This document shows, one piece after another, positions 14,172-52,406 of a DNA stretch of 64,000 bases (position 1 is the first letter of the stretch; each line of letters opens with the position of its first letter). A program made the position numbers and the translations under genes. The notes under the pieces are model-generated. The model searched no databases, was not told the DNA's origin, and saw nothing but the letters and a program-made list of their open reading frames with translations. Source of the DNA: Pseudomonas sp. Irchel 3E20 (lineage in GTDB: Bacteria > Pseudomonadota > Gammaproteobacteria > Pseudomonadales > Pseudomonadaceae). The DNA is taken from contig NZ_FYEE01000005.1 of assembly GCF_900187645.1 (NCBI RefSeq), forward strand, positions 124,001-188,000, read 5' to 3'.

Positions 14172-15320
14172 ATGCCTTTGCCGTCGATGAAAGACCAGTT
14201 CGCTGCGCTGATTGCCGCGCCCTCGGTGAGTTGTACCCAGGCGCACCTGGACCAGTCCAACCGTGGCGTGATCGACCTGCTTGCCACCTGGCTGGGTGAT
14301 TTGGGTTTTGCTTGTGAGCTCCAGCAGGTCAGCCCGGGCAAGTTCAACCTGTTGGCCAGTTACGGCAGTGGCCCCGGTGGCCTGGTGCTGGCCGGGCATA
14401 GCGACACTGTGCCTTTCGACGAAGCGCTGTGGCAGACCGATCCGCTGAAACTGACGGAAATCGACGGCCGCTGGGTAGGCCTGGGCAGTTGCGATATGAA
14501 AGGGTTTTTCGCTCTGGCCATCGAGGCGGTGTTGCCGCTGTTGGGCCAACCCTTCAAGCAGCCGCTGCTGATCCTCGCCACTTGCGATGAAGAAAGCTCC
14601 ATGGCCGGCGCCCGTGCCCTGGCCGAGGCGGGTCGGCCCCTGGGCCGTGCGGCGGTGATCGGCGAGCCGACCGGGCTCAAGCCGATCCGCTTGCACAAAG
14701 GGGTGATGATGGAGCGCATCGACATCCTCGGACGCAGCGGCCATTCCTCCGACCCGCGCCTGGGCCACAGTGCTCTGGAAGCCATGCACGACGCCATGGG
14801 CGAACTGCGCGGCCTGCGCCTGGCGTGGCAGCGCGAATACCGCAACCCACAGTTCTCGGTGCCCCAGCCGACGCTCAACTTCGGCTGCATCCACGGTGGC
14901 GACAACCCCAACCGCATCTGCGGCCAATGCTCCCTGGAATTCGACCTGCGGCCCTTGCCGGGCATGGACCCGGCCGCCCTGCGCGCGGCCATCCGGCAGA
15001 AGCTTGAACCGGTGGCCGAGCGGCATCAGGTGCAAATCGACTACGCGCCGCTGTTCCCCGAAGTGCCGCCCTTCGAGCAACGCGAAGACGCCGAGCTGGT
15101 GCAACTGGCCGAACGTCTAACCGGCCATCGCGCGCAAGCAGTAGCGTTTGGCACCGAAGCACCTTATCTTCAGCGCCTTGGCTGCGAGACGCTGGTGCTC
15201 GGCCCGGGCGATATCGCCTGCGCCCACCAACCGGGGGAATACCTCGAAATGTCACGTTTGCAGCCTACCGTGCATCTATTACGTCAACTGATCCAACACT
15301 ACTGCCTGACCCCGGCCTGA
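14172..15320 (+). CDS. argE: Acetylornithine deacetylase ArgE
   Basis: A 382-residue M20-family metallohydrolase that removes the acetyl group from N-acetylornithine in arginine synthesis. Zinc-site motifs are visible: VLAGHSDTVPFD (His and Asp), GLGSCDMKGFFALAIEA (bridging Asp), and CDEESSMAGA (catalytic Glu and ligand). The dimerisation lid contains KGVMMERIDILGRSGHSSDP, and LVLGPGDIACAHQPGEYLE near the end gives the last His. ATG at 14172 is preceded by CCAGGAG; an earlier in-frame TTG (14151) would remove that ribosome site. argA, for the pathway's first step, follows on the same strand. Confidence 0.95.
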   Translation: MPLPSMKDQFAALIAAPSVSCTQAHLDQSNRGVIDLLATWLGDLGFACELQQVSPGKFNLLASYGSGPGGLVLAGHSDTVPFDEALWQTDPLKLTEIDGRWVGLGSCDMKGFFALAIEAVLPLLGQPFKQPLLILATCDEESSMAGARALAEAGRPLGRAAVIGEPTGLKPIRLHKGVMMERIDILGRSGHSSDPRLGHSALEAMHDAMGELRGLRLAWQREYRNPQFSVPQPTLNFGCIHGGDNPNRICGQCSLEFDLRPLPGMDPAALRAAIRQKLEPVAERHQVQIDYAPLFPEVPPFEQREDAELVQLAERLTGHRAQAVAFGTEAPYLQRLGCETLVLGPGDIACAHQPGEYLEMSRLQPTVHLLRQLIQHYCLTPA

Positions 15321-15359
15321 TCCGCCGGTTGCCAGCCCCCGACCCCAAGGAGAGTGCGC

Positions 15360-15386
15360 GTGTTGCCAAGCCTGTTCCGACGATAA
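15360..15386 (+). CDS. Candidate 8-codon leader peptide ending Arg-Arg, upstream of argA
   Basis: GTG TTG CCA AGC CTG TTC CGA CGA TAA encodes a short peptide MLPSLFRR. A perfect AAGGAG site sits 7 nt upstream (15347-15352). The last two codons are consecutive CGA Arg codons before the stop codon, and argA starts 66 bp later. A weak CAGCC/GGCTG hairpin followed by CTTTTTATT lies in between. Translation-coupled arginine sensing is inference; a chance ORF is possible. Confidence 0.35.
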   Translation: MLPSLFRR

Positions 15387-15452
15387 CCAACAGCCCGCTG
15401 TGCGTTTTGTGCCCACCCTTTTTTCGGCTGCTTTTTATTACAGGTTCAGGTC

Positions 15453-16751
15453 ATGCCCGAATACGTCAATTGGCTTCGTCACGCGTCTCCCTACATTAAT
15501 GCCCACCGCGACTGCACCTTTGTGGTGATGCTGCCCGGTGACGGCGTCGAGCATCCCAACTTCGGCAATATCGTCCACGACCTGGTGCTGCTGCACAGCC
15601 TGGGCGTGCGTTTGGTGCTGGTCCACGGCTCGCGCCCGCAGATCGAAACCCGCCTCGCCGCCCGTGGCCTGATCCCCCATTACCATCACGGCATGCGCAT
15701 CACCGACGCCGCGACCCTGGAATGCGTGATCGACGCCGTGGGCCAGTTGCGCATCGCCATTGAAGCGCGGCTGTCCATGGACATGGCCGCCTCGCCCATG
15801 CAGGGCTCGCGCCTGCGGGTGGCCAGCGGCAACCTGGTCACCGCGCGGCCCATCGGCGTGCTTGAAGGCGTCGACTACCACCATACCGGTGAGGTGCGCC
15901 GGGTTGACCGCAAGGGCATCAATCGCCTGCTGGACGAGCGCTCCATCGTGCTGCTGTCGCCGTTGGGCTATTCGCCCACCGGGGAAATCTTCAACCTCGC
16001 CTGCGAAGACGTGGCTACCCGCGCCGCCATCGACCTGGGTGCCGACAAATTACTGCTGTTTGGCGCCGACACCGGCCTGATCGACGCTGATGGCCGCTTG
16101 GTGCGCGAGCTGCGCCCGCAACAGGTGCCCGCGCACCTGGCGCGCCTGGGCAGCAACTACCAGGGCGAATTGCTCGACGCGGCCGCCGAGGCCTGCCGTG
16201 GCGGTGTGGCCCGCAGCCATATCGTCAGTTATGTGGAAGATGGCGCGCTGCTGACCGAGCTATTCACCCGTGACGGCGGTGGCACCCTGGTGGCCCAGGA
16301 GCAATTCGAGTTGGTACGCGAGGCGGCCATCGAAGACGTCGGTGGCTTGCTGGACCTCATCAGCCCCTTGGAAGAACAGGGGATTTTGGTGCGCCGCTCG
16401 CGGGAAGTGCTGGAGCGGGAAATCGAGCAGTTCAGCGTGGTCGAGCGCGAGGGCATGATTATCGCCTGCGCGGCGCTGTATCAGATCGCCGACTCGGACG
16501 CCGGCGAACTGGCGTGCCTGGCGGTCAGCCCGGAATATCGCCACGGTCGGCGCGGCGACGAATTGCTCGAGCGCATCGAAAGCCGCGCCCGGGCCCAGGG
16601 CCTCAAAACCCTGTTCGTGCTCACCACCCGCACCGCCCATTGGTTCCGCGAACGCGGCTTCGTGCCCAGCAGCGTCGAACGCCTGCCCTCGGCGCGGGCG
16701 TCGCTGTACAACTACCAGCGCAACTCGAAGATCTTCGAAAAGGCACTTTGA
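15453..16751 (+). CDS. argA: N-acetylglutamate synthase ArgA
   Basis: A 432-residue enzyme that acetylates glutamate with acetyl-CoA, the first step of arginine synthesis. The N-terminal amino-acid-kinase domain (residues about 20-270; LVLVHGSRPQIETRLAARGL, RRVDRKGINRLLDERSIVLL) binds arginine as feedback inhibitor. The C-terminal GNAT domain (about 285-432) has the acetyl-CoA loop LAVSPEYRHGRRGDELLERI and ends FVLTTRTAHWFRERGF. Length and the opening YVNWLRHASPYINAHRDCTFV match the classical ArgA type. It follows argE after 132 bp containing the candidate leader peptide. Confidence 0.95.
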   Translation: MPEYVNWLRHASPYINAHRDCTFVVMLPGDGVEHPNFGNIVHDLVLLHSLGVRLVLVHGSRPQIETRLAARGLIPHYHHGMRITDAATLECVIDAVGQLRIAIEARLSMDMAASPMQGSRLRVASGNLVTARPIGVLEGVDYHHTGEVRRVDRKGINRLLDERSIVLLSPLGYSPTGEIFNLACEDVATRAAIDLGADKLLLFGADTGLIDADGRLVRELRPQQVPAHLARLGSNYQGELLDAAAEACRGGVARSHIVSYVEDGALLTELFTRDGGGTLVAQEQFELVREAAIEDVGGLLDLISPLEEQGILVRRSREVLEREIEQFSVVEREGMIIACAALYQIADSDAGELACLAVSPEYRHGRRGDELLERIESRARAQGLKTLFVLTTRTAHWFRERGFVPSSVERLPSARASLYNYQRNSKIFEKAL

Positions 16752-16776
16752 TAGAAGGCCGAGTTCGGTTCCTCTG

Positions 16777-16862
16777 GTAGCGAGCCTGCTCGCGATGACG
16801 CTCTACCCGCCAACATCCTCGTTGGCTGGCACTCGGTTATCGCCAGCAGGCTCGCGCCCCTA
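16777..16862. repeat. Diverged GTAG-type REPIN between argA and tauA
   Basis: GTAGCGAGCCTGCTCGCGATGAC at the left is mirrored less perfectly by GCCAGCAGGCTCGCGCCCCTA at the right, around a central GCCAAC-ATCCTC-GTTGGC hairpin. It lies between two convergent genes. In P. putida, as I recall, tauBCD lie downstream of tauA, so this repeat marks the place where those genes are absent. Confidence 0.7.
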
Positions 16863-16877
16863 GAGGCCGATTGCCCC

Positions 16878-52329: not shown

Positions 52330-52406
52330 TGGTGCACCAGGCGGGATTCGAACCCACGACCCCTGCCTTCGGAGGGCAGTACTCTATCCAGCTGAGCTAC
52401 TGGTGC
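52330..52406 (-). tRNA. tRNA-Arg, anticodon CCG
   Basis: The reverse strand folds as a 77-nt tRNA with encoded CCA. Acceptor GCACCAG pairs with CTGGTGC; the D-arm has AGCTCAGCTGGATAGAG; the anticodon stem CTGCC/GGCAG holds the loop CTCCGAA, giving anticodon CCG (reads CGG). The T-arm has GTGGGTTCGAATCCCGC. No sign of an integrated element at its 3' end. Confidence 0.97.

Follow-up and report, generated by a model that had tools for sequence, protein, structure and literature searches.

The argA gene in this Pseudomonas DNA is preceded by a very short reading frame that ends in two consecutive CGA codons, and we conclude from its conservation that this leader is real and selected, and that it is very probably a functional, translated arginine-codon leader. 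Our best reading is an arginine-sensing leader whose most likely output is translation attenuation of argA through sequestration of the argA ribosome-binding site (RBS), to which we assign a probability of roughly 0.55. The mini-ORF would be translated by ribosomes while the leader is being transcribed. With ample charged tRNA-Arg, the ribosome would finish and depart, the mini-ORF region would fold onto the argA RBS, and argA would be off; with tRNA-Arg(ACG) uncharged, the ribosome would stall at CGA-CGA and cover the 5' arm, leaving the RBS single-stranded and argA translated. The leader peptide itself would be without function, and CGA would have been chosen as the slow codon of the tRNA bearing most of the arginine load.

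If this is true, a large bacterial genus governs the committed step of arginine synthesis through a tiny leader ORF that senses at the level of codons. ORFs of this size fall below the reach of the usual gene finders and could be overlooked elsewhere. In E. coli, argA is under the control of the ArgR repressor. Among the matches listed in the open-access literature, none describes a bacterial arginine-biosynthesis gene under a leader-peptide attenuator, and among the matches listed for a P. aeruginosa 3'-end study (PMC8297930), which names uORFs at obgE and trpGDC, neither "argA" nor "PA5204" occurs.

Architecture of the argE-argA interval

The leader lies on the forward strand of the window, by which we mean the whole 64-kb stretch of DNA that was analysed, between argE (N-acetylornithine deacetylase, 14172-15320 with a provisional start) and argA (N-acetylglutamate synthase, 15453-16751), both also on the forward strand. 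The original prediction had named these two neighbors, and both names are upheld by NCBIfam models above their cut-offs, with PRK05111 (595.8 bits) and TIGR01892 matching ArgE and TIGR01890 (724.7 bits) matching ArgA. A Shine-Dalgarno (SD) sequence, AAGGAG, at 15347-15352 is separated by 7 nt from the mini-ORF GTG TTG CCA AGC CTG TTC CGA CGA TAA (15360-15386, with the TAA stop at 15384-15386). The CGA CGA codons, the putative sensor, occupy 15378-15383, and a spacer of 66 nt (15387-15452) runs from the stop to the argA ATG. All the elements described beforehand, namely a perfect AAGGAG at proper spacing, the peptide MLPSLFRR, the CGA CGA end, and the distance of 66 bp to argA, are confirmed in the sequence.

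This arrangement goes well beyond what chance would give. With a mini-ORF defined as an SD followed by a start and 2-9 codons beyond it, both strands of the 64-kb window hold 10 SD-led mini-ORFs, and the argA leader is the sole one ending in Arg-Arg. Its 27-mer occurs once in its own genome with up to 3 mismatches allowed, and of 12 matches there to GGAG...CGACGATRA, only the argA leader has an in-frame ATG, GTG, or TTG between GGAG and CGACGA. Rfam covariance models gave no match to 14500-16500 at E values up to 1, and a scan of 14900-15800 found no sigma-70-like promoter. Just 3' of argA, at 16770-16870, lies a GC-rich inverted repeat (gcgagcctgctcgc ... gccagcaggctcgc), which resembles a Pseudomonas REP/BIME element; a similar sequence is found between argE and the leader in locus L243.

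Conservation in genus, family, and order

All 149 genomes drawn evenly across the genus have, before argA, a mini-ORF with its own SD in which CGA CGA is followed by a stop no more than one codon later, and each of these leaders has an SD-backed in-frame start. A stricter rule recovers 148 of the 149, the one missed being L219 (ATG TTG CGA CGA AGC TAG, encoding MLRRS). Among argA loci of named Pseudomonas, a GTG or ATG followed by CGACGA and a stop lies upstream of argA in 80 of 80. For many species, DNA similarity to the window is interrupted after argE and ahead of the leader, and picks up again from 15348, within the SD, so that the leader travels with argA.

For the family we used 109 of 119 genomes, leaving out four g1 genomes that had been used already, and also G183, G225, G233, G241, G248, and G262; the argA start was set by peptide match, and a few distant starts may be 1-2 codons off (e.g. 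L351). An open search finds the leader in 55 of the 109 loci, and L353 was added by eye. In this locus, from a g13 genome, the CGA CGA pair runs on into a longer ORF (MKQRRNNKHLNK and then a stop), with no stop close by. Outside the genus of the window the leader is present in 47 of 100 loci and in 9 of 18 genera, and its presence is all-or-none by genus with the exception of g16 (1 of 2); it is absent from the argA loci examined of g3, g5, g7, g10, g11, g15, g17, g18, and g19. The wider order was sampled through the 25 best argA loci outside the family, out of a search of 145 genomes, and not one of these loci, all from other families, carries an Arg-Arg mini-ORF led by an SD. The comparison by which the original prediction proposed to be judged thus comes out in its favor, with SD, frame, Arg pair, and nearby stop all kept across the genus and nine other genera.

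Selection on the frame and the codon pair

We asked what is kept within the leader. The last 200 nt before argA contain 153 occurrences of CGACGA in the 149 genus loci, of which 151 have an SD-backed ATG or GTG in frame and, in that frame, 151 run into a stop no more than one codon on; the other two frames yield 1 such start and no such stop. The family shows the same pattern, with an in-frame start in 84 and a stop in 84 of 96 occurrences, against 4 starts and 1 stop in the other frames. When the search was opened to SD-led Arg-Arg-stop ORFs with any Arg codon, 204 of the 258 genus and family loci matched and all 204 carried CGA CGA; the only other Arg pair, CGA CGC, is formed by the second and third Arg in 15 of them, and no SD-led leader among the 258 loci has a different Arg pair in place of CGA CGA. 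Three loci of the family genus g5 (L362, L373, and L374) have Arg-Arg-stop ORFs with other Arg codons and a weak or absent SD, and are missing from the SD-led matches. The background use of this codon is low: CGA accounts for 26 of 1012 Arg codons in early argA (the first 67 residues of ArgA, in the same genomes) and for 102 of 1295 in the window ORFs, where CGC is the common Arg codon.

Nearly everything else in the leader varies. In a filtered set of 203 leaders from 202 genomes (G136 contributing both L119 and L247), chosen for CGA CGA and a start, the ORF has about 4-8 codons without the stop, the start is GTG in 165 and ATG in 38, and the stop is TAA in 149, TGA in 46, and TAG in 8. The distance from the stop to argA is 52-83 nt in 193 of the 203, with a minimum of 52 nt. 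The residues ahead of Arg-Arg change freely, the minimal whole ORFs being VQRR, VLRR, and VKRR, and across 137 nine-codon leaders the second codon stands for S, L, T, Q, K, M, or R. The half-site of an ArgR box is TGTCGC, and an ArgR box was considered as the conserved item and rejected, since codon 2 is TTG in the window and only 78 of those 137 leaders have TCG there. The comparison shows the mini-ORF to be selected as a reading frame, in which the parts under selection are the SD-led start and a CGA-CGA pair that either abuts the stop or is one codon away from it. A free peptide with fixed codons is the signature of a codon sensor, and the pattern points to codon-specific sensing of tRNA-Arg charging. 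The central proposal of the original prediction, a translated leader with tandem Arg codons and arginine-responsive stalling before argA, is in this way supported by comparison, translation being the presumed step.

In eight loci (L211-L216, L248, and L249) the mini-ORF, GTG CAG/CAA CGA CGA TGA, shares the reading frame of argE upstream, which is open for at least 397 codons. ArgE would end there in ...HYCL(T/S)RS(D/E)(D/E)VQRR (...HYCLTRSDDVQRR and near variants), its final Arg-Arg coming from CGA CGA. Because the sensor would then be the C-terminal end of ArgE, ribosomes finishing argE in this clade would report arginine status to argA.

Decoding of CGA

The tRNA-Arg genes seen in the window's own genome have the anticodons ACG (twice), CCG, TCT, and CCT, with no TCG. 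The sole tRNA gene found in the window is a tRNA-Arg(CCG) at 52330-52406 on the reverse strand. Because no tRNA-Arg seen reads CGA directly, this codon is left to the ACG (inosine) tRNA, the expected load of which (CGU, CGC, and CGA) amounts to 949 of the 1295 Arg codons in the window ORFs. According to selective-charging theory, the isoacceptor predicted to lose its charge first is one whose codons are heavily used relative to its abundance (PMC1183508). In the Salmonella his leader, the reading of CGA is reported to lag behind that of CGU and CGC, with strong de-attenuation by Arg-Arg pairs containing CGA (PMC4046918). At speF, arginine is described as sensed by two Arg codons, rare or frequent alike (PMC6386406); because codon choice mattered little there, the strict CGA of the argA leader is a real difference that sensing alone does not explain. 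If the reading is right, the pair offers a natural test of CGA (I-A wobble) as a special sensor codon, since no synonym of CGA occurs within the pair in any of the 204 leaders found. We put forward, tentatively and with less confidence than the RBS reading in general, a minimal genus-wide attenuator of at least 4 codons (GTG CTA CGA CGA stop) that would sense tRNA-Arg(ACG) charging through poor inosine-A decoding of CGA-CGA, open the argA RBS, and in one clade (the eight loci above) also serve as the C terminus of ArgE.

Predicted pairing with the argA ribosome-binding site

In the predicted fold of the window leader, the argA ribosome-binding region CAGGUUCAGGU (15441-15451) is the 3' arm of a hairpin that reaches back into the mini-ORF. 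GCCUG (15370-15374), the 5' arm, pairs with CAGGU (15447-15451), followed by CC (15377-15378) with GG (15443-15444), GAUAA (15382-15386) with UUAUU (15435-15439), and CAGCC (15391-15395) with GGCUG (15426-15430), all on the forward strand. The last of these is the stem that the original prediction had put forward as a possible attenuator, and in our prediction it makes up the top of the extended RBS hairpin. With the RNA ending at 15460, the predicted unpaired fraction of the RBS rises from 0.22 when free to 0.63-0.64 with a ribosome mask. When 35-48 nt of argA are included (RNA 15342-15487 or to 15500), the switch fades or reverses at some stall positions, the unpaired fraction dropping from 0.48 to 0.37 when CGA8 occupies the A site.

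Beyond the window we used 72 representatives, which were picked by k-mer similarity and are non-independent; the standard deviations of the shuffles given here ignore relatedness. The predicted share of the RBS in pairs with the mini-ORF region is 0.27, compared with 0.14 (sd 0.016) after shuffling of that region. A mask at CGA-CGA gives a predicted gain in RBS accessibility of 0.084 compared with 0.038 (sd 0.009). This gain exceeds 0.15 in 23 of the 72, against 9.9 in shuffles, and a loss greater than 0.15 is seen in 1. The mask effect is present in the LFRR-like and RRR types, and the short-ORF types have no excess gain (delta 0.031 versus 0.040).

The native arms are on average more stable than cross-clade swaps (-15.7 versus -13.6 kcal/mol, 21 clusters, p 0.009). 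In the window's own cluster, the largest with 25 of the 72 representatives, the native pairing is no better than swaps (-19.2 versus -19.1); it is worse than swaps in five clusters (L194, L211, L226, L251, and L315) and about equal in three (L298, L299, and L351). Taken per representative, a median of 0.39 of the swaps are at least as stable as the native pair, and 12 of 72 fall below 0.05, where 3.6 would be expected. The mini-ORF region is hence predicted to pair with the argA RBS on average, not in all clades. Overall folding is unremarkable: the fold energy of the whole window leader is not unusual (z 0.30), and the spacers of the 72 representatives show no folding excess (median z 0.27).

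The predicted partner of the RBS moves between clades. In the fluorescens and putida types, GCCUGU within the ORF pairs with ACAGGC, and the mini-ORF start also pairs with the argA start; in the family genus g9, CCUGUCG ahead of the start codon pairs with CGACAGG; and in g12, UUCCG and UGA pair with UCA and CGGA. We regard this relocation of the partner of ACAGG as the best structural evidence for the predicted RBS helix. Helices are mostly invariant within clades and covariation within them is thin, the clearest double change (L299, in g9) being possibly an alignment shift. RNAalifold gives clade-specific helices, with no single consensus fold common to all leaders, and for 118 distinct fluorescens- and putida-type leaders it gives a weak helix (-5.9). 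An ACAGG-like motif also stands before argA in some loci that have no mini-ORF (e.g. L300, L303, and L325), and from this retention we take the motif to be an ordinary weak SD as well. TCGTC or CGTCG is found in 26 of 72 spacers compared with 13.2 (sd 3.1) in shuffles, and we treat GACGA/UCGUC pairing as a secondary clue only.

Alternative outputs and sensors

The same sensor might instead act on transcription. In the main rival to RBS sequestration, which could also be its partner, the stalled ribosome would shield the start of a C-rich spacer, as in tnaC and orf34-speF, and its departure would let Rho load and end transcription before argA. The spacers of the 72 representatives contain on average 35% C and 22% G, are not folded beyond expectation, and show no clear surplus of intrinsic terminators; this composition, measured within the spacers themselves, may suit such a route. 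Termination in P. aeruginosa is judged mostly factor-dependent (PMC8297930), and at speF Rho is described as blocked by orf34 translation (PMC6386406). However, the spacer is short, within the 52-83 nt already given for 193 of 203 leaders, and Rho would leave unexplained why the mini-ORF is more complementary to the argA RBS than the controls are, and we consider this output unlikely. A classical trp/his-type attenuator, with the CTTTTTATT stem in the spacer as intrinsic terminator, is very improbable. The window does have CAGCC/GGCUG followed by CUUUUUAUU, with similar sequence in many fluorescens-type leaders, and terminator-like hairpins are slightly commoner in the representative spacers than in shuffles (9 of 72 against 4.4 expected). 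The scan of the window, however, finds no intrinsic terminator-like site, the stem is missing from putida-type and more distant leaders, and the excess across spacers is not clear; this part of the original prediction is not supported. By the same figures, 9 of 72 against 4.4 and none in the window, a trp/his-type transcription attenuator of terminator and antiterminator was rejected as a class for the leader.

Two further readings concern what the CGA pair does. Tandem CGA could keep argA at a fixed level, as a place where ribosomes are always slow or drop off, with no sensing of arginine; in the Salmonella his leader, with no Arg starvation imposed, CGA-containing Arg pairs are indeed reported to be slow (PMC4046918). 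Yet a fixed slow site would presumably have no need of arginine codons, and cognate codons located before the first arginine gene are what sensing would predict, so that we find this reading improbable. Alternatively, the nascent peptide could arrest the ribosome, with free arginine or ornithine sensed in the exit tunnel in the manner of TnaC, SpeFL, or the fungal AAP. The C-terminal Arg residues do adjoin the stop, as in a possible tunnel-arrest peptide; against this, the peptides go down to VQRR, VLRR, or VKRR with freely changing residues, and the choice of codon is fixed beyond the amino acid alone. Peptide arrest is the least probable of the readings we weighed.

Comparison with known systems

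The proposed sensing of tRNA-Arg charging with RBS sequestration has partial counterparts in several systems. Mycobacteria have poly-cysteine leader ORFs (Canestrari et al. 2020, PMC8764745), which are likewise short and carry cognate codons in a row close to their stop; no conserved hairpins are reported for the mycobacterial regions and the leaders are cited as translation attenuation, and Cys-type leaders have been predicted in actinobacteria (PMC1262725). As described there, they differ in sensing cysteine, in belonging to other bacteria with other sequence, and in being leaderless ORFs with runs of Cys codons, whereas the argA leader is SD-led, has 4-8 codons, and holds one fixed codon pair. 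Salmonella orf34-speF resembles the proposed argA system in the sensing of arginine by two consecutive Arg codons, in a sequestered downstream RBS, and in the involvement of Rho, which at argA is the main rival or partner; it differs in its 34-codon ORF, its conserved DUF2618 peptide with an HIRRT core and AGG-CGG at codons 12-13, its 516-nt leader, its target in putrescine synthesis, and its action via RNase G (PMC6386406). Membership of the argA leader in the SpeFL/orf34 (DUF2618) family was rejected, its peptides having 3-8 residues by the scripted count and no HIRRT core. In S. aureus, rbfL is described as a GUG-start mini-leader with rare Arg codons that senses arginine limitation and affects translation, in which the ribosome, once paused, obstructs the RBS of the overlapping rbf and so represses (PMC13009471). 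Occlusion of this kind is ruled out for argA by distance: because at least 52 nt separate the stop from the ATG, a stall on the argA leader should spare the argA RBS and would activate.

With the trp/his ribosome-mediated attenuators, the argA leader shares end-product codons chosen for sensitivity to starvation (PMC1183508), and it differs from them in that no terminator/antiterminator pair was found. It has the attributes of the amino-acid-sensing leader class, namely its own SD, a biosynthetic gene downstream, tandem codons for the end product, and a frame and codons under selection. By comparison, then, the argA leader would work like the known amino-acid leader ORFs. In leaders of the ermC type, a ribosome stalled on the leader ORF frees a sequestered downstream RBS. 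The switch proposed for argA may be likened to this ermC-type translation attenuation (PMC2965389), with the difference that ermC senses an antibiotic and the argA leader would sense the charging of a tRNA at a codon.
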